25,953 nt of DNA. Source: a virus. Shown one piece after another: positions 1 through 21,260 of this stretch (positions are counted from its first letter, which is position 1; each line of letters opens with the position of its first letter). The stretch lies in IMG/VR virus record IMGVR_UViG_3300020467_000042, positions 1 to 25,953 of that record; one strand, 5' to 3'. A program made the translations under genes and the position numbers. Below the pieces are notes generated by a model. That model saw only the letters and a program-made list of their open reading frames with translations, was not told the origin of the DNA and did not search any database.

Positions 1-575
1 GAAGTCCTTACATTATCAGCACCATTTGAGTCATTATGATATTGATTTACATAAAGGGTTCTTGTTGATGAGCTTATATTATATTGAGCTAGTCGATATG
101 TTAAAGCACTTGTACTGCCAGCAGTATCAAGGTAAGAAAAACTTTGAGGAATAATTGAATAAGTACCATATTGACGAACAGCAGTCATAGCACCTTCTCT
201 AGTGCCTACTATTGCACCATTTGCTGCTGTTATTGAGGCAAAAGAACCCGAACCAGTTTGTTTTTGAAGAATAACTGAAATATTATTTACATCGTTTGAT
301 GAAGTGAAATGAGTATTGGCTATTATAAAAATTTTATTTGAGGCATTGCTTGGTGTTATAGTCACTTGAATATTATGTCCTGTCCATACTGCCTGTGAAG
401 CAGTACTTTGTGAGGCACTATCATTCCTACCACCCTGTACAACTTGAAGAATTTTACCTCCTCCAAACCCAGTAGCTGTTCCATTACAAGTAACATTACC
501 AGAACTATCTAATGAAATAGCGTCAACTGACGCTCCTGTATGCCTAATACTATTAACAATTAACCTACTGCTCAT
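1..575 (-). CDS. Small tail-fibre-like protein, type C header (partial, runs off left edge)
   Basis: The frame opens at ATG 575 and stays open for 191 codons to the window edge, so the C-terminus is missing. The start overlaps the stop of the upstream gene as ATGA. The N-terminus MSSRLIVNSIR... matches the header of the gene at 2523-3095 (MSRLITNAIR...). The body carries the family signature GGGKILQVVQ, then VTITPSNASNKIFIIANTHF, a SFSYLDTAGSTSALTYRL segment and LYVNQYHNDSN near the cut end. These are the shared landmarks of the six related proteins in this array. The composition is rich in Ser, Thr, Asn and Gly with alternating beta-type patterning, with no signal peptide or membrane segment. 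The likely role is a virion surface or fibre-tip component; this is inferred from the position after the tip and fibre genes and from marine phage relatives. Confidence 0.75.
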   Translation of the reverse strand, partial: MSSRLIVNSIRHTGASVDAISLDSSGNVTCNGTATGFGGGKILQVVQGGRNDSASQSTASQAVWTGHNIQVTITPSNASNKIFIIANTHFTSSNDVNNISVILQKQTGSGSFASITAANGAIVGTREGAMTAVRQYGTYSIIPQSFSYLDTAGSTSALTYRLAQYNISSSTRTLYVNQYHNDSNGADNVRT

Positions 576-913
576 GGCTTGGGATACTTGTCTTTAGTAG
601 CTTTAATTGCAGTTGCCCAAGTCCCTGTTGTATCTAACTTCCCAGCAACCATATCTTTATAAAGCATATCTAACTGATCTCCTATCGTTGGATAGATAGT
701 ATCTGTTGTACCATCAGCACCAGTTCTTTTTGATTTGTAGGCTATAAGGGCTGCTGCATCATCTAATGCTTTTCTAGCTGCTGCTACTTTTGTATCATCT
801 AGTGTTACTTTTGATCCGTCAGCAGCAAACGCTCCAGCAGTATCGTCTATAGAAACAACAGGTTTTGTTGCCGTTTTGTAAGCCTCATAAATAGCCTCGT
901 GGTCTAACGCCAT
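572..913 (-). CDS. Small fibre-locus protein with C-terminal YPTIGDQLDMLYKD motif
   Basis: This 113-residue soluble protein is preceded by an AAGGA ribosome binding site 10 bases before ATG 913. The C-terminal half has the motif YPTIGDQLDMLYKD followed by a short helix and ends KYPKP. The same ending is common in small proteins beside tail-fibre genes of many phages and recalls XkdW-type proteins; that link is from memory, not a search. The N-terminal half is Ala/Asp-rich. It sits between two members of the fibre-like array and does not share their body. It could be a fibre accessory or assembly factor, but the sequence shows no specific function. The call as a real gene is firm; the role is not. 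Confidence 0.7.
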   Translation of the reverse strand: MALDHEAIYEAYKTATKPVVSIDDTAGAFAADGSKVTLDDTKVAAARKALDDAAALIAYKSKRTGADGTTDTIYPTIGDQLDMLYKDMVAGKLDTTGTWATAIKATKDKYPKP

Positions 914-953
914 AATTAAAAAATCCTTTTTACTAAATTATATAGGATGGACA

Positions 954-1607
954 TTAAGCTGCCACCTCAATCGCTGTAAGAGTTGACATTGAGTTTTGTT
1001 CCATATCGCCAGTTCCTCCACCATGATCTCTGTTTAAGTAAATGGTATGACCGCTTGTGCTGTTATTTCCATGCCGTAGTCTGCAATCATAAGTTATGGC
1101 ACTTGTACCCCCTGCTGTATCTAAATAAATTCCAGTAATTGTATTTTGATGTTCAGAATGACTATTAAAACCTTGTGCGTGTAATCTTGCAGCACTTCCA
1201 CTTGCATCTGCTGTAGCACCTGTTATTACTGACCCTGCTTTAAAAAAAGCAAAACCAATATCATTATCAGATTCAAGACCTATTGTTAAATTTGCAAATA
1301 GAAGTATTTTGTTGGAAGAGTTTGCAGGAGTTATGGTTACACTTATAGCTGCACCACTAAATGATTGTTTACCTATGCTTGCTGAGAAAGTATCTGTTTT
1401 TGCAGTTTGTTGAATCTGCAAAAGTTTTCCACCAGCAACAGATGCAAACGATAAATTTCCCGAAGCATCTGTAACAAGAGCTTGTCCAGACGACCCATCA
1501 GCTTGAGGGAGTTTAAATTCAACTTCACTTGAAGAAGGGTTAGATGTTGGTACAGCTATCGAAACTGCATTACCACCAGAATGTACGAGTTTAATTTTTC
1601 CTGTCAT
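954..1607 (-). CDS. Small tail-fibre-like protein, type B header
   Basis: I place the start at ATG 1607, which overlaps the upstream stop as ATGA, giving 217 residues. An in-frame codon further upstream at 1652 would add 15 residues inside the preceding gene and is not needed. The header MTGKIKLVHSGGNAVSIAVP closely matches that of the gene at 3092-3751 (MSQIKLLHSGGNGVIL...). A short linker (VTDASGNLSFASVAGG) leads into the shared body: GGKLLQIQQTAKTDTFS, ISVTITPANSSNKILL, YLDTAGGTSAITY, IYLNRDHGGG and the C-terminal STLTAIEVAA. The predicted fold is a beta-sandwich fibre head, on composition and pattern only. No catalytic motif is visible. It is inferred to be part of the phage's receptor-binding or virion-decoration set. 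Confidence 0.75.
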   Translation of the reverse strand: MTGKIKLVHSGGNAVSIAVPTSNPSSSEVEFKLPQADGSSGQALVTDASGNLSFASVAGGKLLQIQQTAKTDTFSASIGKQSFSGAAISVTITPANSSNKILLFANLTIGLESDNDIGFAFFKAGSVITGATADASGSAARLHAQGFNSHSEHQNTITGIYLDTAGGTSAITYDCRLRHGNNSTSGHTIYLNRDHGGGTGDMEQNSMSTLTAIEVAA

Positions 1608-2191
1608 GCTGATACCTCCAAAATAACAATTGATGACGCGGATCTTGCACAAGATCCAATATCTGAATCATTATGTGATCTATTTAAATAAACTGTTCTT
1701 GCACTAGAGTTTTCATGAAAAAATCTATATGAATATCTAGTTGTACTTGTTGCAGTTGTACCAGAACCACCATGTATATAGTTGTGGTGCATAAGTATTA
1801 TTTTTTCATCGTCATTGTTTGGCTGTGCTACAAAAGAGGATCTTCCCCTACTACTAGAAGCATCAGATAAAGATGCTGTAGCAAGCGAACCTCCTATATA
1901 CAATTCCCCATAAGTTCTATTACTATGTTGATTTGATATAGCTAAGTTAGCCATAATTAATAATTTATTATTACTATTAGCTGCTGCATAATCTATAAAT
2001 ATTAAGTCTCCAGTTCGTGTAGGGTAGCTAACATCACTAGATGCAGTATCAGTTTTATAAGTAACAGCGTAATTAACAATTTTACCCCCAGCACCACTAG
2101 CTAAATCGTCAGCAGTAATACATCCATCAGGTAACCCACCAACTGCAAGACCTGTAATTACTCCTGTGTTTCCGTTGATTGATACTGGCAT
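1604..2191 (-). CDS. Small tail-fibre-like protein, type A header
   Basis: This 195-residue protein starts at ATG 2191, which shares bases with the upstream stop (TAATG). The header MPVSINGNTGVITGLAVGGL is nearly the same as in the gene at 3748-4341 (MPVVINGSGTVTGISVGGL), so the two form a header pair. The body follows the family plan: GGKIVNYAVTYKTDTAS, a SNNKLLIMANLAI strand pair, a variable Ser/Asn-rich middle, VYLNRSHNDSD and the C-terminal ASSIVILEVSA. The middle third differs strongly from the paired copy, as expected for a variable surface. It is tightly coupled to its neighbours, so expression is probably coordinated. The specific receptor or role cannot be read from sequence. Confidence 0.75.
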   Translation of the reverse strand: MPVSINGNTGVITGLAVGGLPDGCITADDLASGAGGKIVNYAVTYKTDTASSDVSYPTRTGDLIFIDYAAANSNNKLLIMANLAISNQHSNRTYGELYIGGSLATASLSDASSSRGRSSFVAQPNNDDEKIILMHHNYIHGGSGTTATSTTRYSYRFFHENSSARTVYLNRSHNDSDIGSCARSASSIVILEVSA

Positions 2192-2523
2192 TAGATAACT
2201 GTGAAAACTGATCCAGAAGGTATGGTTAAAGTATAAGTAGCCATTGAGAAAGGGCCAGCCACCATACCATTCTTATTATTACTAATTGTAATATTCCCTG
2301 CTGCTGCAACAGGATTTTGGAATATATCATCAGTTACTCCACTTGCAGGTATGGATATAGCATTAGTAGATGCAGCAGTAACTCTTCCTTGTGCGTCAAC
2401 TGTAATAGCAGGAATTGCAGTTGCAGAACCATAGCTTCCAGCTGTTACAGAAGTGTTAGCTAATTGATCTGCTCCAACAGAATCATCAGCTAATCCACCT
2501 GTTTGTGTTTTAGTTAATCCCAT
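2191..2523 (-). CDS. Short fibre protein lacking the shared body (110 aa)
   Basis: The start at ATG 2523 overlaps the upstream stop (TAATG) and the stop overlaps the next start in the same way. The N-terminus MGLTKTQTGGLADDSVGADQ has the GGLxDxxVxxxxL pattern of the header regions. The centre has SYGSATAIPAITVDAQGRVT, a motif widespread in phage tail fibres. The C-terminus (ITISNNKNGMVAGPF ... TIPSGSVFTVI) resembles the end of the 699-residue fibre upstream (LTISNNYTMTTNKSG ... TIPSGSRYVIV), so both appear to carry the same terminal beta cap. It lacks the GKILQ...NKILV body of its neighbours. It may be a short trimeric fibre or spacer between the two header sets; function is inferred from motifs and place only. 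Confidence 0.7.
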   Translation of the reverse strand: MGLTKTQTGGLADDSVGADQLANTSVTAGSYGSATAIPAITVDAQGRVTAASTNAISIPASGVTDDIFQNPVAAAGNITISNNKNGMVAGPFSMATYTLTIPSGSVFTVI

Positions 2524-3095
2524 TATGCTGCCAACTCCATAACTGTTATTGATGAAGTACCGTTTGTAACATATCCGTAATTATCTAATGCAACAGTACT
2601 ATTAATTGCAACCACATATGAAGAAGAATATGGAGAATATACCTGCATTTTATATGTTGTCGCTGATGTGGTGTTTGGAGAGTCTAAATAAGAAGTTACA
2701 ATCGTTTGTGTATCCATAGTTGAAGCCATATAACCTCCAAAAGTGGCTCTAGTTTGATTTGTATTTGAACCGTTTACATCCCCGATAAAAATTGTATTAT
2801 CACTATCTCTAGCTAAACGCATTGCATAATAAATAGCATTACCGTTAACATAAACAGAACTATGTACTAGAATTTTATTAGACGCTGAACTAGGAGTAAT
2901 ACTTACACTTAAACCTGTAATATCAACTGGAGTTTGTGATTGAGCAGTAAATCTATCTTTTTTTACAGTTTGAACAACTTGCAGAATTTTACCAGCACCG
3001 CCATTTGGAAAGGCTGGTTTGCCAGAGTTATCAAATGTTATTGCATCTGATGAAGCAGAAGTGGATCGTATTGCGTTTGTTATTAACCTACTCAT
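2523..3095 (-). CDS. Small tail-fibre-like protein, type C header
   Basis: This 190-residue protein starts at ATG 3095, overlapping the upstream stop as ATGA. The type C header MSRLITNAIRSTSASSDAIT is shared with the partial gene at the left edge. The body has all family landmarks: GAGKILQVVQTVKKDRFTAQ, LSVSITPSSASNKILVHSSV, AMRLARDSDNTIFIGD, SYLDSPNTTSATTYKMQVYS and the end SSITVMELAA. Among the six it is closest to the form I recall as abundant in marine phage contigs. Proteins of this kind are usually annotated as hypothetical or tail-fibre-like; a trimeric jelly-roll or lectin-like head is a reasonable guess. No enzymatic motif is seen. Confidence 0.78.
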   Translation of the reverse strand: MSRLITNAIRSTSASSDAITFDNSGKPAFPNGGAGKILQVVQTVKKDRFTAQSQTPVDITGLSVSITPSSASNKILVHSSVYVNGNAIYYAMRLARDSDNTIFIGDVNGSNTNQTRATFGGYMASTMDTQTIVTSYLDSPNTTSATTYKMQVYSPYSSSYVVAINSTVALDNYGYVTNGTSSITVMELAA

Positions 3096-3751
3096 GCTGC
3101 AACCTCCATTGCTGTTATTGTTGAAATACCATTTGCATCGTAAGTTGCATTATTTTGTAAACTTCCAGACCTATTTATATAAACTGTTTCACTTGAACTG
3201 TAGCCCATACCTTCTAAATGATATGTAATTTTATTTCCTAATGTGTAACTTGGTGTATCTAAAAAACTAAAATGTGATTGATGTATAGCATGAACTTTCA
3301 TGCCTGTTTGATCGTCACGAACTTGTCTTGATACTCTTGGTCTGCTTCCACTAGAATGACCTAAAGCTGGATATGTAGGGTTTGCATCTTGTATTTCTCT
3401 AACTAATCTTACTGTCATCATAACTCCAAGATTAGAACCCATTGCTGCACTAAATTCAACTAGAATTTTACTATTTGCTGCTGTTGGAGTTATGTTTACT
3501 TCCCAAATAGATCCAGCACCTGTTTCATCCGTCCCAGCAATATCTACAAAAGAAGTACCTGTCCAACTTGCAGTATCAGTTTTAACTGATTGCTTCACTT
3601 GGAGAATTTTTCCTACAACTGAGTTTGAGGTAAGGATAGTTCCATCAGCATCGCCTGGTAATTTTAAAGTACGATCAGATGCAGGGTTGCTATCAGGTGC
3701 AGTTAATATAACTCCATTACCACCGCTATGTAACAACTTTATCTGACTCAT
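3092..3751 (-). CDS. Small tail-fibre-like protein, type B header
   Basis: This 219-residue protein starts at ATG 3751, overlapping the upstream stop as ATGA. The type B header MSQIKLLHSGGNGVILTAPD is followed by TLKLPGDADGTILTSNS, a linker typical of marine tail fibres, then the shared body VGKILQVKQSVKTDTASW, WEVNITPTAANSKILVEFSA, RLVREIQDAN, FSFLDTPSYTLGNKITYHLE, VYINRSGS and the end ISTITAMEVAA. It has a longer, more charged middle (SRPRVSRQVRDDQTGMKVH) than its paralogues, which may be the exposed variable surface. The position after the large fibres suggests a receptor-binding or decoration role; this is inference. Confidence 0.77.
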   Translation of the reverse strand: MSQIKLLHSGGNGVILTAPDSNPASDRTLKLPGDADGTILTSNSVVGKILQVKQSVKTDTASWTGTSFVDIAGTDETGAGSIWEVNITPTAANSKILVEFSAAMGSNLGVMMTVRLVREIQDANPTYPALGHSSGSRPRVSRQVRDDQTGMKVHAIHQSHFSFLDTPSYTLGNKITYHLEGMGYSSSETVYINRSGSLQNNATYDANGISTITAMEVAA

Positions 3752-4341
3752 GCTGCAAACTCCACTACATAGGCTTGTGTACCACCTGCACGTTGTTGAA
3801 ATGATGAGGGATCAGATTGTCCTAAATAACAAGTCTGTCCAGAGTTAGCAATCCATTGTATTTTATAAGTTATTGTTGTGCTACCATCTCCACCTGGATC
3901 CATATCCCACCATTGAAATCCAACGTGAAATATTTGGTTTGAATTATCGCCACCTACATAGTTAGACATAGTTGAAGTTCTACCAACACCATCTCCTGTA
4001 GTATTCATTCCTAAATCTGTAGAAACACCACCTTTTGTTCTGACAATTTTAAATCTTACAGTATCAGTATTACTTGAGCCTTTTGGAGCGCAAAAAGATA
4101 TAAGCACGTTAGCATTAGTTGCAACATTGGGTAGATCGAATTCAAAATCACTTGATATACTTGCCCATGATGTTGCGGTTGTAGAATATGAACCTACTGC
4201 TTGATATTGTTTATACTGTAAAACTTTACCACCAGCAGGGATTACACCAGCTGCAATCATATCACTATCAACTATTCCATCAGGTAACCCTCCTACCGAG
4301 ATTCCTGTTACTGTTCCTGATCCGTTAATAACTACTGGCAT
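3748..4341 (-). CDS. Small tail-fibre-like protein, type A header, first of the array
   Basis: This 197-residue protein starts at ATG 4341. A G-rich ribosome binding site (GGGGG at 4348-4352) lies 6 bases upstream, so this copy may begin a freshly initiated translation unit. The header MPVVINGSGTVTGISVGGLP matches the gene at 1604-2191. The body is the most divergent of the six (GGKVLQYKQYQAVGSYST, ATNANVLISFCAP, VRFKIVRTKGGVS, TITYKIQWIANSG, CYLGQSDPSS), but the order of landmarks and the C-terminal YVVEFAA keep the family pattern. Trp and Cys residues in the core are unusual for the set. It is inferred to be a virion surface protein. Confidence 0.74.
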   Translation of the reverse strand: MPVVINGSGTVTGISVGGLPDGIVDSDMIAAGVIPAGGKVLQYKQYQAVGSYSTTATSWASISSDFEFDLPNVATNANVLISFCAPKGSSNTDTVRFKIVRTKGGVSTDLGMNTTGDGVGRTSTMSNYVGGDNSNQIFHVGFQWWDMDPGGDGSTTITYKIQWIANSGQTCYLGQSDPSSFQQRAGGTQAYVVEFAA

Positions 4342-4351
4342 AATTTACCCC

Positions 4352-6451
4352 CTAGACAATAACATAACGTGAACCTGACGGAATGGTAACTGTTACCCCA
4401 TTTGCTATTATTATATCCCCTGCACTAATACCTGACTTATTTGTGGTCATAGTATAATTATTTGAAATTGTTAGCGAGTTTTCTGTAATACAACCATCAG
4501 CTTTTTGTGAGGAAACTCCAGTTAGTGCTGATCCATCAATTGCAGGTAATGCCCCAGTTAGTTTAGATGCTGTAAGAGCAGAAATCCTAGCATCTGCTAC
4601 TGTACCTGTTAAGTTACCTGCTGGTAAATTAGTTAAGCTTGCACCTGACCCACTAAATATAGTTGCTGCTAATAATCCTGTAGCTGCATTAAATGTAAGA
4701 TTTGAACCTGACTTTAATGCCAAGTCTCCTGTAGCTGCGGTAGCGAATAGAGGAAAACAGGTGGTATCAGAACTCTCATCAGCAATTGTAGAGGTAGTGG
4801 CATTACCAACTGCAACTTGAGTTCCCATATTAATAATGAAATATGTAGATCCACTAGGAGGAGCAGAATCAAAAATTATATCTGTTCCACTTACGACATA
4901 TCCATCTGTCATATCTCCCTGCCCAGTTCCATCATTGGGTTGTTGCATCACACCATTAATAGATACTCTTAATATCTCTGCATTAGCAGGTGTTACTGCT
5001 GTACTTGTACCTTTCGTGACTAATTTAAATCTGTAAGCAGATCCGTTAAATGTAGCTGATCCACCACCAGTTCCAGAAGAAGATGCAATATCTAATAAAT
5101 CTGCTGTTCCTGTGGCTGCTGATCCACCAATTTCTCCCCAAGCACTTCCATCATATCCCTCGAACTCTGATGTTTGGCTATTAAATCTGAACATACCAGC
5201 TGAAGCTGATGCTGGCCTTTGTGCTGTTGTCCCAGCAGCAACATCAATAGCTCCTGTTCCTGTCATCAAAATATCGCCACTTATACTTAAATTTCCACTA
5301 ACAGTAAGACTAGAAAGTAAAGTTCCTGTAGCTGTAGCTGAGTTTGTCTGAACAGCATTACCCATCAATGAGTGGCTTGAGCATTGATAATGAAGAACCA
5401 TTGGGGTGTTATCTGCTATAACAATCTGCACATATGCACCACTTTGCCCTGCTGTGCCATTTACAGTAACATTTGTTGTATAAGCTGTAGTTTTATTTGA
5501 CTCAAGATAAAAACGCAAAGGATGACCAGAATTACTTGAATGTGATTGATCAAATTTATAAGTACGACCAGGTGTAAGAGTTAAAAATGGTGCTTCTTTG
5601 CCGTCAATTAAATATCCATTTCCAGAGCCACTTCCGTTATATCTATGTGCTGCTGTTTTGCTTGCGACAGTAACAGCTAAAGTTTTTACAGATCCAGTAT
5701 ATGTTGCTTGAGTAGAAGCAAATCCTCTTATATTTCCATCATCAGTAAGAGTTAAAGTTCCTGTAAAATTAGGATCTGCATTTTGACCAGGGGCTACCCA
5801 ACTTAGAACTCCAGAAGCATTACTTGATAAAACATATCCACTTACAGAAGAATCAGCAGAAGGTAATGTCCAAACAACATTTGATGTTACTGTTGCTGCT
5901 GATTTAAAACCAACATAATGAGATGAGTCTGCATCTAAATATCTAACCTCTTTTTGTGCAGAAACAGATAAATGCTCACTACTTGTCCAAGAGTCTGTTG
6001 CATTTACCCAATTAAAAGTTTTGTCAGTTGCACCTTTTAAAGTTAAACCACCTTGGTCAGCGGTCGTATCAGTTGGAGTTGATACTTTACCGAGAGTAAT
6101 GTTTTTGTCTTCAACATCAAGATTAGTAGTATTGATGGTGGTCGTTGTACCACCTACTGTCAAGTCTCCGGGTACATTAACTGCTCCAGCACTACTGATT
6201 GATAAACGAGCTACACCTCCTGTTATTAATGATAAAGTATCTGATCCACCTGATATTCCTGAGTTACTATCTGAGTTAAAACTAAACGCAGGGCTACCAA
6301 CAGTTCCATCAGGTGCTTTGCTTAATAAATTTGCATAACTTATCTTTTTATTTTTTGCTGAACCTGTTGCACTTTGATCTATTATCGGCAAAGTATCTGT
6401 ACTAGCTGGTGCAGTAAGTTCTGTAAATTCTGATATTTTGCGGTTTGTCAT
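4352..6451 (-). CDS. Large tail fibre with apparent cupredoxin-like domain (699 aa)
   Basis: The N-terminus MTNRKISEFTELTAPASTDT is a typical marine-phage fibre attachment-type start. Residues about 45-200 hold the PAFSFNSDSNSGIS, LTVGGTTTTINTTNLDVED and GGLTLKGATDKTFNW repeats common in cyanophage and marine fibres. Residues about 256-370 look like a small copper-protein fold: HRYNGSGSGNGYLIDGK, SGHPLRFY (His310) and HYQCSSHSLMG (Cys357, His360, Met363), the H-C-H-M set of type 1 copper sites. Residues about 395-440 (GTTAQRPASASAGMFRFN ... FEGYDGSAWG) repeat a module of the next gene. The C-terminus has LTGTVADARISALTASKLTG and a beta cap ending TIPSGSRYVIV. It follows J and the collar fibre, so a host-contact role is likely. 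Actual copper binding is not shown by sequence alone. Confidence 0.82.
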   Translation of the reverse strand: MTNRKISEFTELTAPASTDTLPIIDQSATGSAKNKKISYANLLSKAPDGTVGSPAFSFNSDSNSGISGGSDTLSLITGGVARLSISSAGAVNVPGDLTVGGTTTTINTTNLDVEDKNITLGKVSTPTDTTADQGGLTLKGATDKTFNWVNATDSWTSSEHLSVSAQKEVRYLDADSSHYVGFKSAATVTSNVVWTLPSADSSVSGYVLSSNASGVLSWVAPGQNADPNFTGTLTLTDDGNIRGFASTQATYTGSVKTLAVTVASKTAAHRYNGSGSGNGYLIDGKEAPFLTLTPGRTYKFDQSHSSNSGHPLRFYLESNKTTAYTTNVTVNGTAGQSGAYVQIVIADNTPMVLHYQCSSHSLMGNAVQTNSATATGTLLSSLTVSGNLSISGDILMTGTGAIDVAAGTTAQRPASASAGMFRFNSQTSEFEGYDGSAWGEIGGSAATGTADLLDIASSSGTGGGSATFNGSAYRFKLVTKGTSTAVTPANAEILRVSINGVMQQPNDGTGQGDMTDGYVVSGTDIIFDSAPPSGSTYFIINMGTQVAVGNATTSTIADESSDTTCFPLFATAATGDLALKSGSNLTFNAATGLLAATIFSGSGASLTNLPAGNLTGTVADARISALTASKLTGALPAIDGSALTGVSSQKADGCITENSLTISNNYTMTTNKSGISAGDIIIANGVTVTIPSGSRYVIV

Positions 6452-6453
6452 AA

Positions 6454-7419
6454 TTAAAACTTGATTATGTACATAAGAGCTATATTTTTAGGTCTTGCTT
6501 CAGTACCACCACCACCACTTGATATTGTATGAGAATGAGTTGCGTCAATACTTATTCCTGACGCATTTGCTGAACCAGAACTTCTTGCACCAACAGCTGA
6601 TTGTGGAGAAAGTTTTGTAATAATTCCACTTGCACTTCCTGGATTATTTGCAAGAGAACCTGATAAATGCGAAACACTACCAGTTAAGCTTTGAGAATCT
6701 GTTGTATGATCGTGGTTTTTGTTTTGATCAGTTTGTGATGATCCAAATACACGACTTGCATCTACTCCAGCACTATTATCCCAACCTCTAACAAATTGAC
6801 CTCTTAAATCAGGCAGGTTGAATGTAGAAGATCCATCCCCTGCCCCATGTGTTGTTGATAAAATTGAAAATAATGACGCATATGTGGATCTACTAATAGC
6901 ACTACCATTACATTCTAAAAACCCAGAAGGGGGAGTAGAAGCTCCAAAAGTTAATATAGTTCCTGTCGGAATTCCTGACGCTAAACCGCCCCAAGCCGAT
7001 CCGTTATAACCCTCAAAACTAGTTGTTGTACTATTAAATCTTATTTGTCCTGTAGCTGCTGTTGGTCTTTGTGCAGTTGTACCACTTGGCAATTTTAATG
7101 CACCTGTACCACCCATCACTATATCTCCAGCAGAATCTACTGTGCCTGTAAAATCTGGAGATGCTTTTGTCGCTAATCCAAAATTATTTGTATGAGCCGC
7201 ATCTGTCAAACTGCCTAAAACTAACCAACCATTATTTGCAGAATTTCTTATTTTTAATAAATTTGTTGAAGTATCAGCCCATATTTTATAAGCAACAGTT
7301 GTAGTTGGATCTGAAGAACCACTATTTAAAGATTGTATATCTCCTAATACAGCATTAAGTTCAGTTCTAAATGTAGACCCAACTTGGTTAGCTAAATTAT
7401 AATCTGCTGCATTACTCAT
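6454..7419 (-). CDS. Tail fibre with phage tail collar domain (321 aa)
   Basis: The start codon directly follows the J stop (TAAATG). Residues about 1-70 (MSNAADYNLANQVGSTFRTE ... IWADTSTNLLKIRNSANNGW) are a conserved marine fibre N-terminus that likely docks on the tail tip. Residues about 105-145 contain GTTAQRPTAATGQIRFNS and FEGYNGSAWG, shared with the next fibre. From about residue 150 the collar domain appears: GTILTFGASTPPSGFLECNG, YASLFSILSTTHGAGDGSST, FNLPDLRGQFVRGWDN, then NHDHTTDS and ATHSHTISSGGGGTEARPKN with the C-terminal IALMYIIKF. The HxH pairs match metal-binding loops of collar-domain proteins such as T4 gp12 tips (family knowledge). It probably makes a trimeric receptor-binding tip. 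The domain call is strong; the receptor is unknown. Confidence 0.9.
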   Translation of the reverse strand: MSNAADYNLANQVGSTFRTELNAVLGDIQSLNSGSSDPTTTVAYKIWADTSTNLLKIRNSANNGWLVLGSLTDAAHTNNFGLATKASPDFTGTVDSAGDIVMGGTGALKLPSGTTAQRPTAATGQIRFNSTTTSFEGYNGSAWGGLASGIPTGTILTFGASTPPSGFLECNGSAISRSTYASLFSILSTTHGAGDGSSTFNLPDLRGQFVRGWDNSAGVDASRVFGSSQTDQNKNHDHTTDSQSLTGSVSHLSGSLANNPGSASGIITKLSPQSAVGARSSGSANASGISIDATHSHTISSGGGGTEARPKNIALMYIIKF

Positions 7420-10722: not shown

Positions 10723-11339
10723 ACTTCTACCTGCTCATTCTCAATATTTGCTGACACCACTACAGAACCAACCATTACACGACCATATATCACAGGAACA
10801 GCAACTCCTGCTCTGCTAGTGTTTTGTATACCACTAAAATTAAATGATCTTCTTGGATCTTGATTTTCTTCTGGAATAGTATCAACAGGTGTGAGCATTG
10901 TAGATACTCCGTTTAAAACCATAGCAGCACCAACATAAGATACTATTGTACCTACTTTTGTAAAAAATCCTCCAGCTACAGCGGTCTTTCCAAAAATACT
11001 TGAATAACCAAAAGCACCTGCTCCCGGAAACATAAAACTTATACCTATTAATGCTGCCCCAAACAATATTTGCCTACCAGCACCACCTCCAGCACCTCCA
11101 ACAACAGGAACTATTTTTATGTCATTTTGTCCTATGGGATAATGTAATTCCTCATCATTTAAAGACCAATTTTTATCAACTATTATTTTGTAATAATTAT
11201 TAGCCATATGACTTTCTAGTTGAGGAAAATTAACGACTAAAAATCTTACAGCTTGTGCAGCATTATTAACTTCTGCCTCAAAAGTTCTCTGACCTAAAAA
11301 CTTTGCAAGTTCTCCGTATAGCTTAATTTTCTTTAGCAT
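10719..11339 (-). CDS. I: Tail assembly protein, lambda I-like
   Basis: This 206-residue protein has the two-part design of the lambda I family. Residues about 1-82 look ubiquitin-like (KKIKLYGELAKFLGQRTFEA, AVRFLVVNFPQLE, YKIIVDKNW, LHYPIGQNDIKIVPVVGGA). Then comes a Gly/Ala-rich hydrophobic segment (RQILFGAALIGISFMFPGAG ... VGTIVSYVGAAMVLNGVSTM) with membrane-like character, and a C-terminal tail (RSFNFSGIQNTSRAGVAVPV, IYGRVMVGS) typical of the family. It lies between K and J as in lambda, where it is needed for tail-tip assembly. The start ATG 11339 lies 17 bases inside the end of K. Recognition rests on motifs and gene order. Confidence 0.9.
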   Translation of the reverse strand: MLKKIKLYGELAKFLGQRTFEAEVNNAAQAVRFLVVNFPQLESHMANNYYKIIVDKNWSLNDEELHYPIGQNDIKIVPVVGGAGGGAGRQILFGAALIGISFMFPGAGAFGYSSIFGKTAVAGGFFTKVGTIVSYVGAAMVLNGVSTMLTPVDTIPEENQDPRRSFNFSGIQNTSRAGVAVPVIYGRVMVGSVVVSANIENEQVEV

Positions 11340-12030
11340 AACGAATCCTTTTACCTGTACATTTTAGCAACCATTCATCTAATAAATCACGACTTGATAA
11401 TCTATTTTGTAGATGATGCAAAACTGTTTGCTGTCCTAAGTAAACACCAATATGATTTAATCCGCTACTACTTATTGACATTAATAATAAATCTCCATAC
11501 TGCAAATCTTCTTGTTGATTTAATTCTCTAAATCCTGTTTGTTCATAACAATCATTAAACATCGGATTTTCAACAAAGTCATTAGGATCGTTTGGTCTTA
11601 CCCAATCTTTTAATTCTATTCCTAATTCTTCTGCATACCAATCTCTACATAAACTCCAGCAATCATTTACACCCCATACCCATTTCCTACCAATAAGAGG
11701 GGCTTTATAACCACATGGCTCGCAATATTTCCAATCATTAGAATCAGGTTGTACAATCCACCATTTTAAATTTGATTTTTCACAAGCTACCTTATCTGCC
11801 TCACTTGGATTTGCACTAGTAAATGGATGGCTATGAATGACAGCAGTTACCTCTCCCTGTTCTTCTGCGTCTACCCAATCTTCGGGAGACAATATAAATT
11901 GATCGTTTGGATTTGCAGCTAAATTTTGACATGGGAAATACACCTCTTTGCCTTTTTTTATAATTAATAAGCCACATGACTCATTTGGCCTACTTTCTAA
12001 TGCGTGTTGAAGTGCCTCAGTTTGCCACAC
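11323..12030 (-). CDS. K: Tail assembly peptidase, lambda K-like (JAMM + NlpC/P60)
   Basis: Two peptidase domains are visible. Residues about 5-95 are a Mov34/JAB1 metalloprotease domain: E17 in NESCGLL and the JAMM motif HSHPFTSANPSEAD (H66, H68, S76, D79). Residues about 105-232 are an NlpC/P60 domain: GVNDCWSLCRDWY (C124, nucleophile), GLNHIGVYLG (H193) and a downstream VLHH that can supply the third residue. All catalytic positions are intact, so peptidoglycan or stem-peptide cleavage during entry or tip assembly is plausible. The start is GTG, sharing its G with the L stop (TAGTG). A C-x2-C pair (YCEPCGY, residues 103-106) bridges the domains. Confidence 0.93.
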   Translation of the reverse strand: MWQTEALQHALESRPNESCGLLIIKKGKEVYFPCQNLAANPNDQFILSPEDWVDAEEQGEVTAVIHSHPFTSANPSEADKVACEKSNLKWWIVQPDSNDWKYCEPCGYKAPLIGRKWVWGVNDCWSLCRDWYAEELGIELKDWVRPNDPNDFVENPMFNDCYEQTGFRELNQQEDLQYGDLLLMSISSSGLNHIGVYLGQQTVLHHLQNRLSSRDLLDEWLLKCTGKRIRYAKEN

Positions 12031-12653
12031 TAGAAAAATCCTCCCACACCAGGGAAATCTTCGGGTAAAACTTGACGTTTAGGTAGTCTTACACCATCTA
12101 AATCAAAACTTGCAGCTAATTCAAAAGAAACCTCTGCTCTGTTTTCTCCTGATTTACGATCTATAAAAAATATTTCATCAGGAAACTTTGCTGTTGGATC
12201 AGCAGTTCCAAATGTATTCTGACCTGACTCTAAATCTACAAAACTACCATCTTCTTGTAATAGAAGAGAACTATCTTCTAGCAAAATGTCTCCTCCAGCA
12301 AAGTTATCATCATCAATAAATCTTCTTAAAGTTCTTATTCTTGTTACTTTTGCACCTTCTAAGCCTTGAGGTAATGTTAAAAGAATAGTAGTTATGTTTC
12401 CAAAAATATTAGATATTTTTAAATTTGGTCTTGGTAATTGTTTACCATTATATTCAAAACCTTCCGCTTGTATTGGCATTCTTGTATACTCATTGCTATC
12501 AAAAATTAGATTCGCATCATTGTTAGTTCCAACACCATTATGAAAATAATAGGTTTGAGAGACACCATGCATAGTTGTATTTAACTCAAGTTGAAAAAGC
12601 TCAACAATATTATCTATATTTGGATTTTGTAACTGAGATACAGGTACGGCCAT
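12030..12653 (-). CDS. L: Minor tail protein, lambda L-like, lacking the cysteine-rich site
   Basis: This 207-residue protein lies between M and K. Family features are IVELFQLEL near the N-terminus, YTRMPIQAEGFEYNGKQLPR, LKISNIFGNITTILL, VTRIRTLRRFIDDDNFAG, FPDEIFFIDRKSGENRAEVS and FELAASFDLDGVRLPKRQV. Lambda L ends in a domain whose cysteines bind an Fe-S cluster. Here the protein has no cysteine at all, and PKRQV is followed almost at once by LPEDFPGVGGFF, as if the metal-binding stretch were cut out. It also has a repetitive acidic insertion (DILLEDSSLLLQEDGSFVDL) before NTFGTADPTA. The start is ATG 12653, overlapping the M stop (TAATG). The role is tip assembly by homology and gene order. 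Confidence 0.88.
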   Translation of the reverse strand: MAVPVSQLQNPNIDNIVELFQLELNTTMHGVSQTYYFHNGVGTNNDANLIFDSNEYTRMPIQAEGFEYNGKQLPRPNLKISNIFGNITTILLTLPQGLEGAKVTRIRTLRRFIDDDNFAGGDILLEDSSLLLQEDGSFVDLESGQNTFGTADPTAKFPDEIFFIDRKSGENRAEVSFELAASFDLDGVRLPKRQVLPEDFPGVGGFF

Positions 12654-13000
12654 TATGGTTCAAATACTTCTGTAAAGGTAACTGATATTGTGGCAAGACC
12701 AGGAAAATTAATAGTTTTCTTTCTATTTAAAGCACGATATTTACTTGTCGTTGGCTCATCAGGTGCTTGCCAATTAAAATAATCCCCATCCTCAATACGA
12801 GCATCAAGAAAAGTTTCTATTGTGTCACTTTCTGCTTCCGTGATATTTTCAAATCTAAGATTATAAGATTTTGGATTAATATTTAATCCAAATTTTACTA
12901 CCTGTTCATATCCGTCTTGAAATCTTGTCCTCGACACAAAAGGACTTACATCTTTTGTTACACCATAAACAGGTTCAATAGATGGAAATGTTTGAGCCAT
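12653..13000 (-). CDS. M: Minor tail protein, lambda M-like
   Basis: This 115-residue protein has the marks of the lambda M family: FPSIEPVYGVTKDVSPFVSR, TRFQDGYEQVVKFGLN, SYNLRFENITEAESDTIETF, GDYFNWQAPDE, KYRALNRKKTINFPG and ATISVTFTEVFEP at the end. Length is close to lambda M (109). In lambda it joins the tip complex with L, I, J and K around the tape measure. It is encoded between the tape measure and L, with the start ATG overlapping the tape-measure stop (TAATG). The call is firm. Confidence 0.92.
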   Translation of the reverse strand: MAQTFPSIEPVYGVTKDVSPFVSRTRFQDGYEQVVKFGLNINPKSYNLRFENITEAESDTIETFLDARIEDGDYFNWQAPDEPTTSKYRALNRKKTINFPGLATISVTFTEVFEP

Positions 13001-15234
13001 TATGACAATAAACCTCCTGGTCGTTTTTGTCTGATAAGTTCTGCCTGTACTGCCATGCCAAGCATTTTTCCTAATTCAGCAGCTTGAGTTGAGTCTGATT
13101 CAACACTTGATCCTGTTGCATCAACATTAACACTTATATTACCAACTCCTCCTCCTTGTGCTATTACTCCAAGTTTTCCATCTTTACCACGTTTCAGCGG
13201 GAGTATACCTTCTGCCCCAGACTCGGCCATTAAACCTGCACCATTTGCCATTGGAAAAATGGTTGGACGATCAACTATGCCTCCCATTTTGTATGGGACA
13301 ACTTTATTTTGAGCAAATACATTTCCTTTAGCATTCTTCTCAACTACACCGCCTTTTTCAAAACCTAAGAATTTTTCTAATCCAGGTGCTACTGCAAATA
13401 AAGTTTTGAAAAACAAAGCTTTTAAAATCATTCTTTGTAAGTCAGCTAATATCGATCTTGCTAACTCGCCAAAACTAGCTTTTCCTGTCATTGCAAGTTC
13501 TACAAAACCATCTGCAAGTTTATTTATAGAATTAACAGCAAGTTCCCCAATCTGTGTGTTTAAATCCATTGCAGATTCTGCAATTTTTTTAAATTCTTCT
13601 TTAAAATTATATGTTTCATTTTTATTTTCAATTAACTTTGCTTTTATTTCATCAAGTTCCATTTTAAATTCTGGACCTTGAATCTCTATCATTTCATCTC
13701 TAATTGCTCTTGCTTCTCTATCTATTTCTAAAGCATCAAATTTTTCTTGAGTTATTAGTCCTAGCTGTAACTGACGTTTTGCAAGTTTTTCATTTATTTT
13801 ATCTTGTGATATAGGTTCATCAAAATTACTTTCAGCCGTACCACTCTCAGATGGGTTTGCAGCATAAAAATCTTGCATATTAAGCATAGCTAAATCTCTA
13901 GCTCTCTTAATTCTGTTAAATCTAGCTCTGTCTTTTGGATCGGTGCTTTTATCTAATCCCTGTCTAATAGCAATAGTGTAAGCATCACTACTACTCTTGA
14001 CTTTGTTTTCTAAATTTGTTCTTTGATTTTCTGTTCCAATATTAAATAGCCTTCCAAGACCCTCAATTATTCTATTTATAGAATTAACTATACTAGTTGC
14101 TAATCTTTGGAAGAATGCCCCTATAGGCTGCATAATTCTTCCAAGATGTAATTGTAATTGTTGCATTGCAACAGTTAATTTTTGCCCTGCATCCATTCCA
14201 CTATCAGCCATTTTTAAAGCTGCTTCTCTATGATCATCACTAAGCTTGACAACAAACTTCATAACATCATTAAGACCAACAGTTCCATCTCTCAAGTCTT
14301 TCTGCAACTCAGGTAGTGTTCGTCCTGTTGCTGTAGCAAATTTAACCACGGCTCCTGGTAATCTTTCTCCGAGCTGACCTTGTAATTCTTCGGCCGACAC
14401 CTTACCTTTACCAAAAATCTGCGACATCGCTCGAATAGCAGATTGCACATCTTCAGCATCTCCACCTGTTGCCTTGATAGCCTCAGATACACCTCTGAAA
14501 ACTTTTTCAGCATCTTCTACATTTCCACCAGCACCGATAACAGATGCAGATAAAGTAGTAAATTGTTTTGTAGATGCACCAATTGGTACATTTAATTCTC
14601 TAGAAACAGTTGATATAACTTTTTGTGCTTTTGAAAAATCTCTTTGTGTTTTAGTTACACCTTTTAAAGCAATCTCTAAACGACCAATTTGAGCAGCATA
14701 TTTAGCAGCCGCACTAGCCGCTCTTACAGTATCTATTGCACCTCCAACGGCAGCCCCTGCAACAGCACCTGCCGGGCCTCCTAAAGCAGCACCTGTAAGA
14801 GCCATTTGACCTGTAGCTCCAAAATTACCTGCCATAGAACCAGCCATTGCACCAAGTGCTGCTCTACCTCCAACTCCAAATTTAGAAGCCTTAAGTCTTC
14901 CAAACATTCCTTTTGGTTGGATTTGTGTAAATGATTTTAATTTTGCATTATTTGCATCAATTGCTGCTCCAAGTTTTTTAAATTCAGCACCACCAATCTT
15001 TACTTCATTCCTAAGTGCTTTTAATGTTCTTTCTTTCTGCTTAAATTGATTTACACTTTTTGGTACAAGTGCAATTGTTGTTTTTATATTATTATTAAGG
15101 CTTTTTATTCCTGTTTGATTTAGTGGCTTAAATGCTTTATCTAATTGTTTTAGTGAACGTGTTAATCCAGTAAGATCTTCTAGACCTTTTAAATCTATTT
15201 CAATAGTAAATTTTTCTAACTTCTTAGCTGCCAC
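13000..15234 (-). CDS. H: Tail tape measure protein, lambda H-like (744 aa)
   Basis: The start is GTG 15234, with a strong AGGAG ribosome binding site at 15242-15246 (spacing 7) inside the end of the T region. Residues 1-110 are Lys/Leu-rich and helical. Residues about 124-170 are an Ala/Gly-rich hydrophobic stretch. Residues about 180-400 match the tape-measure N-terminal domain: KAQKVISTVSRELNVPIGAS, AIRAMSQIFGKGKVSAEELQ, GQLGERLPGAVVKFA, MQQLQLHLGRIMQPIGAFFQ. The C-terminus has FGELARSILADLQRMILKAL, MGGIVDRPTIFPMANGAGLM and AESGAEGILPLKRGKDGKLG, as in lambda H and relatives. At about 1.5 angstrom per residue this suggests a tail near 110 nm; C-terminal processing would shorten that slightly. 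It sits after G/T and before M, as in lambda. Confidence 0.94.
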   Translation of the reverse strand: MAAKKLEKFTIEIDLKGLEDLTGLTRSLKQLDKAFKPLNQTGIKSLNNNIKTTIALVPKSVNQFKQKERTLKALRNEVKIGGAEFKKLGAAIDANNAKLKSFTQIQPKGMFGRLKASKFGVGGRAALGAMAGSMAGNFGATGQMALTGAALGGPAGAVAGAAVGGAIDTVRAASAAAKYAAQIGRLEIALKGVTKTQRDFSKAQKVISTVSRELNVPIGASTKQFTTLSASVIGAGGNVEDAEKVFRGVSEAIKATGGDAEDVQSAIRAMSQIFGKGKVSAEELQGQLGERLPGAVVKFATATGRTLPELQKDLRDGTVGLNDVMKFVVKLSDDHREAALKMADSGMDAGQKLTVAMQQLQLHLGRIMQPIGAFFQRLATSIVNSINRIIEGLGRLFNIGTENQRTNLENKVKSSSDAYTIAIRQGLDKSTDPKDRARFNRIKRARDLAMLNMQDFYAANPSESGTAESNFDEPISQDKINEKLAKRQLQLGLITQEKFDALEIDREARAIRDEMIEIQGPEFKMELDEIKAKLIENKNETYNFKEEFKKIAESAMDLNTQIGELAVNSINKLADGFVELAMTGKASFGELARSILADLQRMILKALFFKTLFAVAPGLEKFLGFEKGGVVEKNAKGNVFAQNKVVPYKMGGIVDRPTIFPMANGAGLMAESGAEGILPLKRGKDGKLGVIAQGGGVGNISVNVDATGSSVESDSTQAAELGKMLGMAVQAELIRQKRPGGLLS

Positions 15235-18509: not shown

Positions 18510-21260
18510 TTATGTTCCGAAGCAGAACGCACCTGGTTGCTTAACAGCAAAGTCAACATCCTGTAATGCAATAATTCTTACACTACCTGCTGTTGCGTTT
18601 GCATATGGATCTACAGTTAGATCTAAACCAGACCACATACCGATTACAAACTGTGAAAAGTCTCCAAAGAGAACATCGTTGTTTGCAAGTTGGTTAGAAA
18701 CAATAGCAGGGTAGCCATTAATTTCATTGTTCTCAAACACGAACTGTGCTGTGTTTGAAGCTTTTTCTGTTGACTTCAAAGCACCTCTAGCAGAAGCATT
18801 TATTAGGTAGAACATATTAGCTACATCAGCATTAGCCGCTGCAACGTCTGTCTCCATTCCAATGTACTCAGCAAAAGTACCAAATGTACTGATTGTTTGT
18901 GTTCCTACACCAGTTGTATCTTTAATTCCAAGAGGCTCGTTAGAACTACCAGAACCATAGATTGCTGCGTTATCAAGCTTAGTTGCAATAACCTTTGCAA
19001 TATCATCTCTAATCATTGACTCAACATCAATTGAAGATTGAAGAAGTAATCTTCTTGAGTAATCAACAAATGCACCAACTGTCTTAGGTGTCATGTTGAC
19101 TTGATCAAAAGCTTGCTGACTTTCTGTTGGAGAACCCGATTCGCCAACGAAATAAGCGGTGCTACTTGAGGTCATCCGGGGGATAGATACGTTTCCTGAC
19201 AATCCAGTAAGCATTGTTGGGTTAGTTGCCATCACAGCCATTCTCTTTCTAAGAATGTCGATGAATGAACCTGCAAGTAATTCTGTTGGAACTAAGTTAC
19301 CACCAGCTGTTGCAGTACCTACATTCAAGTCTCTTTTTAAAACTTCGTTAGGAACTAAAATTCCATTTGCAGGTTTTTCATACTTCTTAGAAGCTGCATC
19401 AGATACCTCTCTCTCAAAAGCTGCTGCTTCTTGAGCTTGACGATCTGTAGGATTTGCTAATGCGTTTAATGCTCTTAAGAAAGAGAAACGCTTAATTTCT
19501 TTTTGGTCTAAGCCAACTTCGTTTGTTGTCATGTCAGTAGAACGAATGGGTGTATTACGAACCTCTGCCTTGTTTTTTACAAGATCGAGGATAGCTGCCT
19601 TTGCTTCTTCGGGAGTTTTATTTCCCTTTATAAGTGAATCAGCAAGCTGTTCTGCTCCATACTCTCCAAACTCACGACATAACGAAGTGATTGATGCTGT
19701 ACGAGCATTGTTTTCATCAATAGCACGTTGTACTTCGGCTTTGATGTCGATTTCAACGGCTGGAGCCGTATCAACCGCAGTTTCTTTAGTTGATTCTTCC
19801 ATGTTTCGGACTGTTGTTGATGCGGGTTCAACCGCAGAATTAATCTCCTGTATAGGAGATTCTTCTTCCATACTAATACTATTACCTTGGGAGGGTTCTA
19901 TCAAACTTCTTCCAAAACCAATAGTTGGATCAGCTGGAACAGTTACAACTGATAATTCGTGTACTGACCAGTTGGTGGCTCTCATGCCATCTTCCATCTC
20001 TTCCATATTATTAATTTGATATCCAAAAGAAATACCTCTTAATATTCCATCCTGGACATCTTGTAATATTTCAGATGCAAACTTGTTTCTAGAAAAACGA
20101 ATTTTTGCATAGCCACGTTTATCTTCTGGATTTATATAAGCACGTTCAACAACACCTATTGGTTTGTTCATATCGTGATTAAACAGAACCGCTCCACCAT
20201 CATTTAATCGTGATAAGTCTGCTGCTCCCTCATCATGGCTTAACACTTCGTTACCAAAATAACGCTTGACGCTAAATTCTGAGCTAAATGGAAACTCAAA
20301 TGTGCGTGATTTCACATTTTTGAAGTCCGTAACCTCTTTACGCTCAAATTTATCTCCAATCTCAATCGATCTAATATCGGCAATTTTTGTAAGTGCCGAA
20401 AATCGATGACCTGCATAAATATCGGTGGACTCGCCATCTCTATATACTTGGATCAAAGCAGCAGGGTCTTCGGCTGTTCCGTTAATAACAAAAGAACTGC
20501 TAGGAACATCAATCTGTCCATCACGTTCTATTCTTGTAATCTTTCCTCTAGCTCGACCTCCACTAGCATTCCAAGATACAAAATCTCCTGTTTTTAAAGC
20601 ATCAGGTTCTGCTCTTTTTTCGACTTTAGTTGTTTCAGCCATAGTTTTTTCGTTAGTAGCAGGTTCAAACTCGATAGGTTCAAACTCGTTTCTCTCAAGC
20701 CAAGCTTGTGCTTCAGAGGCAGAATATTCAGAAAGTCTGAACCTAATTGATTGAAGTTCAGCACCCTCCTCATTATCCTTTATACCAAATATAAAGTCTA
20801 TGCCTTGAGAGGCTTCGTTGTTAGACCGCCTAAATGTATCATATTGTTCTGAATTTGTAATAGTTGCTGCGTGTTCATTTGGATATGGTCTTGCAAATTC
20901 TATAAGTTCTGCTCTTTCTCTTGCTTTTTTAATTTGTGCTGCTTTTTTACGACTCCAACTAAAACCAGCGTCCCCTCCCCAGGCTGCCCAAGCCGTGCGT
21001 CCAGGACTAGGATATCCTTTCTCGCCTGGTCTAAAACCTTCTGCTTTTTTATCAACTTCATGTCTAGCAAAAAAACTAAACATCCTTACAACAACATCTG
21101 GAGATAACTCATTACCACTTAATATTTGTGTCGCTCTTACGGCTGCAACTTGAGTACCGCCTTTTCTACCTTCCTTTTTCCATTCCTTATAACGTCTAGC
21201 CTCCGTCTTCATCCCATCTGTGGGTTTTAAATTAATCTCTGTGCCACTTACATTTGCCAT
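18510..21260 (-). CDS. Head maturation protease - scaffold - major capsid polyprotein (916 aa)
   Basis: One frame from ATG 21260 holds several domains. Residues about 17-115 are a compact domain (GRKGGTQVAAVRATQILSGN, FSFFARHEVDKKAEGFRPGE, TAWAAWGGDAG) seen at the front of some phage proteases. Residues about 118-198 (HAATITNSEQYDTFRRSNNE, GIDFIFGIKDNEEGAELQSI) and about 220-290 (LKTGDFVSWNASGGRARGKI, EDPAALIQVYRDG; DUF2945/Tudor-like) are accessory. Residues about 310-455 are an HK97-type prohead protease: LFNHDMNKPIG (His362), ISFGY, VHELSVVTVPADP (Ser437). Residues about 460-570 are acidic and helical, a scaffold-like delta region. Residues about 640-916 are an HK97-fold capsid: TAGGNLVPTELLAGSFIDIL, VSIPRMTSSSTAYFVGESG, FVDYSRRLLLQSSIDVESMI, GSGSSNEPLGI, VDFAVKQPGAFCF. 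The protease should cut the fused chain during maturation. Internal Met464 and Met576 could give separate products. Confidence 0.9.
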   Translation of the reverse strand: MANVSGTEINLKPTDGMKTEARRYKEWKKEGRKGGTQVAAVRATQILSGNELSPDVVVRMFSFFARHEVDKKAEGFRPGEKGYPSPGRTAWAAWGGDAGFSWSRKKAAQIKKARERAELIEFARPYPNEHAATITNSEQYDTFRRSNNEASQGIDFIFGIKDNEEGAELQSIRFRLSEYSASEAQAWLERNEFEPIEFEPATNEKTMAETTKVEKRAEPDALKTGDFVSWNASGGRARGKITRIERDGQIDVPSSSFVINGTAEDPAALIQVYRDGESTDIYAGHRFSALTKIADIRSIEIGDKFERKEVTDFKNVKSRTFEFPFSSEFSVKRYFGNEVLSHDEGAADLSRLNDGGAVLFNHDMNKPIGVVERAYINPEDKRGYAKIRFSRNKFASEILQDVQDGILRGISFGYQINNMEEMEDGMRATNWSVHELSVVTVPADPTIGFGRSLIEPSQGNSISMEEESPIQEINSAVEPASTTVRNMEESTKETAVDTAPAVEIDIKAEVQRAIDENNARTASITSLCREFGEYGAEQLADSLIKGNKTPEEAKAAILDLVKNKAEVRNTPIRSTDMTTNEVGLDQKEIKRFSFLRALNALANPTDRQAQEAAAFEREVSDAASKKYEKPANGILVPNEVLKRDLNVGTATAGGNLVPTELLAGSFIDILRKRMAVMATNPTMLTGLSGNVSIPRMTSSSTAYFVGESGSPTESQQAFDQVNMTPKTVGAFVDYSRRLLLQSSIDVESMIRDDIAKVIATKLDNAAIYGSGSSNEPLGIKDTTGVGTQTISTFGTFAEYIGMETDVAAANADVANMFYLINASARGALKSTEKASNTAQFVFENNEINGYPAIVSNQLANNDVLFGDFSQFVIGMWSGLDLTVDPYANATAGSVRIIALQDVDFAVKQPGAFCFGT

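Follow-up and report, generated by a model that had tools for sequence, protein, structure and literature searches.

Architecture of a Repeated Tail-Fibre Array

In the Ackermannviridae, the branched complex of tailspikes TSP1-TSP4 places several receptor-binding proteins (RBPs) on each virion, a conserved N-terminus positioning each protein and a variable C-terminal domain recognizing the receptor (PMC11414711). These receptor domains recombine, in the laboratory even from one tsp gene to another (tsp4/tsp5) (PMC11414711). For the anchor-branch RBPs of Klebsiella phages (KP32, KP34, Menlow, PhiK64-1), and for K1-5 and G7C, the portion of the source drawn on here states that secondary RBPs are thought to be attached to a platform protein by a short conserved N-terminal peptide of 7 to ~70 amino acids (aa) (PMC6872550). 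Here we describe a tail-fibre locus in a 25.9-kb fragment of a lambda-type siphophage (IMG/VR record IMGVR_UViG_3300020467_000042, positions 1 to 25,953; this whole stretch is referred to as the window), in which six small paralogous proteins bear three types of N-terminal header. Modular receptor binding is well known, but few examples combine multiple slots with slot-to-slot exchange and precisely placed boundaries. Exchange of the distal tail-fibre adhesin of T-even phages, reportedly described by Tetart in 1998 (a study cited in PMC11414711), is said to concern one fibre tip and no slot array with non-allelic exchange. The layout was not found described in a literature search that covered subscription literature thinly, so a prior description is possible. 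The locus is probably a modular receptor-binding array of two T-A-B-(y)-C units, with slot-specific headers for docking or assembly and exchangeable receptor-binding heads.

All genes of the array lie on the minus strand, downstream of the gene for the tail protein gpJ. A collar-type fibre (6454-7419) is followed by a 699-aa tail fibre matching tail fibre PHROGs (T1, 4352-6451), whose C-terminal tip, ...TISNNYTMTTNKSGISAGDIIIANGVTVTIPSGSRYVIV, stands directly before the first small protein. The open frames then run A1 (3748-4341; header MPVVINGSGTVTGIS), B1 (3092-3751; MSQIKLLHSGGNG), C1 (2523-3095; MSRLITNAIRSTSAS), a 110-aa gene (2191-2523), A2 (1604-2191; MPVSINGNTGVITG), B2 (954-1607; MTGKIKLVHSGGNAV), a conserved 113-aa gene of PHROG 9114 (y, 572-913) and C2 (1-575; MSSRLIVNSIRHTGAS), the 3' end of which is cut by the window. 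B2 starts at the ATG at 1607, the longer TTG open reading frame (ORF) reaching 1652 being an artefact of the ORF rule. By pairwise BLASTP, the A1/A2, B1/B2 and C1/C2 pairs align from header residue 1-5, and one body family, of predicted TNF/C1q-like fold, is common to all six. Each of the A, B and C proteins consists of a slot-specific N-terminal header of 25-60 aa and a C-terminal head of ~160 aa; Pfam holds no family for either part. These coordinates and headers confirm what the first-pass annotation had observed, namely six paralogues with three header types in an order given twice.

That annotation had also proposed extending the sequence leftward. A near-identical record (L005, IMGVR_UViG_3300020448_000093; 98.9% nucleotide identity over 12 kb) completes C2 at 202 aa and encodes no further family member beyond it, so C2 is the last gene of the array and each header type occurs exactly twice. 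After the array, at 12089-13700, the same record carries small unrelated genes (coiled-coil-like, membrane and a 216-aa protein); a 121-aa protein of similar make-up to a post-array protein of this record follows the array of P-SSP7, a podovirus isolate of Prochlorococcus with a similar array.

Headers Keep a Fixed Order Behind a Fibre Tip

Relatives were gathered through gpJ and header searches, giving 178 loci with the body family, of which 126 are non-redundant, and nearly all small proteins in them fit the three header classes. Every header-bearing ORF was counted whatever its body, since a count by body profile had missed slots with unrelated bodies. Among the non-redundant loci, neighbouring genes make 204 forward steps (A>B 114, B>C 86, A>C 4), 19 C>A wraps and 3 exceptions (C>B 1, B>B 2), retrieval through C headers biasing the choice of loci but not the order inside them. 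When labels are shuffled within loci, the averages are 102 forward steps, 28 wraps, 74 violations and 21 repeats. The random header order that had been named as evidence against the first-pass reading is therefore not seen.

In the 19 two-set loci, A1/B1/C1-type headers occupy the first set and A2/B2/C2-type headers the second, with few exceptions; a B1-type header in the second set at two loci is the sole source of the B-B pairs. Three loci (L041, L042 and L070) have A C - A B B C arrays in which a B1-type header adjoins a B2-type header in set 2, and here a whole header-plus-body gene has apparently moved between sets. Header identity is ~78% within a class and 21% between classes, and headers are conserved at the protein level among phages whose gpJ proteins are only 76-80% identical. 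The A, B and C headers each pair with their counterparts in the other set and in other phages, failure to do so having been set beforehand as the outcome that would speak against the array. Moreover, the first 24 aa of the A1 header are 67% identical to the A1 headers of other phages vs. 54% to A2 of the same phage, with corresponding values of 92% vs. 58% for B1 and 89% vs. 69% for C1. Judged by these identities, any duplication of the set is older than these phages, and the slots have been kept apart since.

The A genes have a further constant neighbour. A tip-bearing protein lies directly upstream of 93/93 first A genes and 21/22 later A genes (114/115 in all), the lone exception being a loose header match in phage MEP402, and no tip-bearing gene directly precedes B or C genes. 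The tip score is reached by ~7% of random ORFs in these loci, a background that arises because the fibres themselves are among the random ORFs. The protein bearing the tip is frequently a long fibre ahead of the first set; ahead of a later set it is, with a single exception, an open stretch of 99-129 codons. In the window the two tip proteins are the 699-aa fibre ahead of set 1 and, ahead of set 2, the 110-aa protein (T2), a mini-fibre with a tip of the T1 type. Taken together, the tip rule and the placement of the two sets define the repeat unit as T-A-B-(y)-C, present twice. The 110-aa gene, previously described as a different protein and read as an insertion, thus opens set 2. Pfam and PHROG scans assign the T proteins of the window to fibre and collar families only, although remote gp10-like similarity could escape such scans, and residues 419-699 of the 699-aa fibre match P-SSP7 gp17 (E 5e-20).

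The y gene is less constant in position: its usual place, between B and C, accounts for 59 cases, and another 21 have it between A and B. Its product has a predicted fold without a match in the PDB. Relatives of y adjoin fibre-head genes in numerous phages that are not related to one another (Limnohabitans, Methylophilales, Pelagibacter), at 4294-4584 in P-SSP7 (L236), 4498-4776 in L238, 3597-3881 and 4426-4695 in L239, and 2081-2452 in L237. L238 is PQ492659.1, from Limnohabitans phage DC33, a 39-kb tailed-phage-like record whose taxonomy line reads Inoviridae, probably a database error.

Heads Are Exchanged Between Slots at Short DNA Seams

All six window bodies have a twin of 84-98% identity in another slot of another phage. 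For set 1, L086 holds the twin of the A1 body in its A2 slot (98% identical), that of the C1 body in its B1 slot (96%) and one of the B1 body in its C2 slot (88%); the B1 body has a second twin in the C1 slot of L008 (98%). For set 2, the twins sit in the A1 slot of L117 (A2, 89%), in an A slot of L170 (B2, 84%) and in the A2 slot of L087 (C2, 89%). The comparison with L086 is the most direct: 6.5 kb of upstream backbone are collinear with the window at 78.7% nucleotide identity and the headers are collinear too, while three heads are permuted (A1->A2, B1->C2 and C1->B1, at 92, 86 and 96% nucleotide identity). Across classes, bodies of 75-98% identity sit on headers of ~20% identity. The earlier statement that bodies have diverged far more than headers holds for the array, and such pairs show header and body to be modular. 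Bodies do vary, as had been claimed; that description is incomplete, since they are also exchanged between slots. Of 209 pairs of bodies that are 50-95% identical, 65 share a header class (31%; 34% expected for random pairs). In the less redundant counts by cluster, 24 of 50 body clusters (at ≥60% identity) span more than one header class, with at least 28 switches.

The boundaries of the moving piece are sharp. The head is bounded by a 5' seam where it joins the header (GGTAAAATTCTTCAAGTT, GKILQV) and by a 3' seam at its 3' end (ATGGAGGTAGCAGCATGA), the latter including the Shine-Dalgarno sequence and start of the next gene. In 53 cross-class pairs, homology begins +2 nucleotides (nt) from the 5' seam (interquartile range -1 to 6) and stops -2 nt from the stop codon (interquartile range -8 to 1), whereas in same-slot control pairs it runs through the seams. 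Cross-class joins fall at ~18 conserved nt between otherwise unrelated headers. Synonymous codon choice is also far more uniform at the seams than inside the bodies (Ile ATT 0.94 vs. 0.50, Leu CTT 0.75 vs. 0.22, Glu GAG 0.94 vs. 0.15, Ala GCA 0.93 vs. 0.44). At the 3' seam this uniformity is explained by the translation signals of the following gene (ribosome-binding site and start), the stop codon overlapping or abutting the next ATG in 250/271 cases. The 5' seam may be a repeated substrate of recombination.

Diversification by a diversity-generating retroelement was considered as well. It was rejected, as whole bodies change rather than scattered positions and six related records (41-52 kb, perhaps themselves fragments) contain no RVT_1 match.

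Predicted Fold and Function of the Heads

The AlphaFold2 model of the C1 protein has a mean predicted local distance difference test score (pLDDT) of 89, and above 90 in the body. The modelled body matches the TNF-like lectin PLTL (9ib7; Z 14.3, 2.0 Å over 122 residues), the BC2L-C lectin (2wq4; Z 13.5) and Pgp3 (Z ~14), followed by C1q heads (Z 9-10), as well as many uncharacterised phage proteins and fibre ends. The common head is accordingly predicted to be a jelly roll of the TNF/C1q-like type seen in bacterial TNF-like lectins, at 16-17% sequence identity to them, rather than a beta-helical tailspike head. The body also matches the C-terminus of orf22 in PDB entry 9efk (18 chains; E 8e-34), to which no paper or phage record could be tied. 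Array headers are also joined to no fewer than three further kinds of body, which show no relation to the common head by profile comparison or motif, one of them with a Peptidase_S74 chaperone domain. Apparently empty slots can be filled by such bodies, as is A2 in L030.

In PLTL, glycans are bound between the protomers of a trimer (PMC12914763). The array genes adjoin gpJ and fibre genes, and the P-SSP7 homologues are annotated as tail fibre. Given the predicted fold, the position and the annotation, the heads likely bind receptors.

Proposed Mechanism and Alternative Explanations

In the proposed mechanism, each small protein would form a homotrimeric receptor-binding head, and each header would dock or assemble its head at a dedicated site on the T fibre or on neighbouring proteins. 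The docking model follows from the headers and T tips being the conserved parts of the array, such that conserved contacts, if any, are expected among them. Heads could plausibly be swapped at the seams by short homology during mixed infections, and a swap would re-arm any slot while leaving assembly and translational coupling undisturbed. A more specific version, which we put forward tentatively and rate at somewhat less than an even chance, is a socket-and-plug display: each T tip would offer three sockets (A, B and C) for which the headers are plugs, and heads of unrelated folds would circulate as in-frame cassettes between two seams, the second doubling as the ribosome-binding site of the next gene. 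The pool of heads would be common to Prochlorococcus siphoviruses and podoviruses, short-homology recombination placing any head in any slot.

Several observations weigh against the proposed array and its mechanism. Header pLDDT is low (48-79) in the C1 monomer model, and the case for receptor binding comes from fold, position and annotation. Arrays without a slot occur (A and B only, or A and C only), so no slot is essential everywhere, although several such gaps actually hold the right header with an unrelated body. A gene for an Erf-type annealing protein is present in 1/6 related records, and RecT and RecA in 0/6. The 24 multi-class clusters compare with 37 +/- 2.9 under shuffling, which indicates that some bodies stay in their class by descent and that exchange is not fully random; on these counts it appears frequent, not total. 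Finally, the fixed order could follow passively from a frozen header frame.

This last point underlies an alternative that we regard as unlikely, in which headers are only trimerization nuclei or translational start modules, without slot-specific docking, and only bodies recombine. Order would indeed be kept automatically where bodies rather than genes move, and constraint on the DNA alone would preserve the 3' seam, given that the ribosome-binding site of the next gene lies in the 3' end of the body. However, such a frame does not readily account for headers conserved as protein across phages with gpJ at 76-80% identity and even in a podovirus (the A header of P-SSP7 is 92.5% identical over 40 aa to a consensus-like query), for the near-invariable tip-bearing protein ahead of A, or for the same headers on non-homologous bodies.

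Members of the C1q/TNF superfamily include A/B/C heterotrimers. It is conceivable on this basis that A, B and C are three chains of one heterotrimer, as in complement C1q, making one asymmetric tip per set, their order reflecting stoichiometric co-assembly. In its favour are the fixed order of exactly three header classes in each set, the predicted head fold and the translational coupling of the genes. We consider it improbable, because single slots may hold bodies showing no relation to their neighbours (S74, a long 'N' type and other families), bodies move between classes, and arrays lacking B or C occur.

More doubtful still is an origin of the body permutations in chimeric metagenome assembly at repeats. 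The loci are mostly metagenome contigs with repeated, similar modules, but the joins fall at the ~18-nt seams, L005 keeps the window arrangement, the A-slot body of the isolate P-SSP7 is 85% identical to a C1-slot body, and a B2-slot body on a Prochlorococcus single-cell contig is 99% identical to a B1-slot body elsewhere. Least credible is a recent tandem duplication of an A-B-C block with later insertions, as the first-pass annotation had suggested from the identical order twice in one phage, since it is contradicted by set-1 headers (A, B and C) lying nearer to set 1 of other phages than to their own set 2 and by the 110-aa gene opening set 2 instead of being an insertion; an ancient duplication of the set is possible. 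The earlier reading is, as a whole, partly supported.

Host Association and Genomic Context

In the Prochlorococcus single-cell genome AG-418-M08, gpJ is 78% identical to that of the window, and the contig concerned, which also encodes the Erf-type annealing protein, is identical to locus L149 with its two-set array. As such a link could reflect an infecting or an attached virus, we infer, and no more, that Prochlorococcus is the host of the window phage. The association came from gpJ, a profile search of bacterial genomes with the C1 header having given no match. The cyanophage marker psbA was absent from 12 related records, so the host cannot be inferred from it.

Pfam recognised terminase gpA, portal, a protease-capsid fusion, tail tube, tape measure and gpJ in the window, all on the minus strand. 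The fusion is a 916-aa ORF (18510-21260) joining a Peptidase_S78 prohead protease to an HK97-type major capsid protein, with a weak TUDOR-like stretch upstream of the protease. A gpK-like protein with JAB/MPN and NlpC/P60 domains lies at 11323-12030, also on the minus strand.

The array would offer phages that infect one of the most abundant photosynthetic cells in the ocean a simple route to changing host recognition. Its many natural recombinants reveal which pieces stay (header, tip and seams) and which piece moves (the head). The predictions that headers alone bind T or neighbouring proteins, and that heads fold on any header, are testable, and a cultured model exists in P-SSP7 on Prochlorococcus MED4.

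Comparison With Known Systems

A close counterpart is P-SSP7 (NC_006882), an isolate with an array of this kind: behind the gp17 tip come A, B and C-like genes, then a homologue of y and a C2-like gene. It differs from the window in being a podovirus with a single T unit and an additional C-like gene, and its annotation goes no further than tail fibre or uncharacterised proteins. The bacterial lectins PLTL (PMC12914763) and BC2L-C share the predicted head fold (Z 13-14); they are not phage parts and are only 16-17% identical to the head, whose sugar binding is putative.

With the Ackermannviridae tailspikes the array shares a conserved slot-specific N-terminus, a variable C-terminus and domain exchange by recombination, known here from sequence. 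However, the Ackermannviridae have folded XD/TD (gp10-like) N-termini, large beta-helical spikes and up to four slots, in contrast to the 25-60-aa headers, ~160-aa heads of predicted TNF-like fold, six slots in two units and short DNA seams of the array. In the Klebsiella anchor-branch systems the platform is usually a T4gp10-like domain and the bodies are depolymerases, and the portion of that source drawn on here does not describe A-B-C classes or in-frame seams (PMC6872550). The array resembles both the Ackermannviridae and the Klebsiella systems in logic and is a member of neither, differing in head fold, header size and unit structure.

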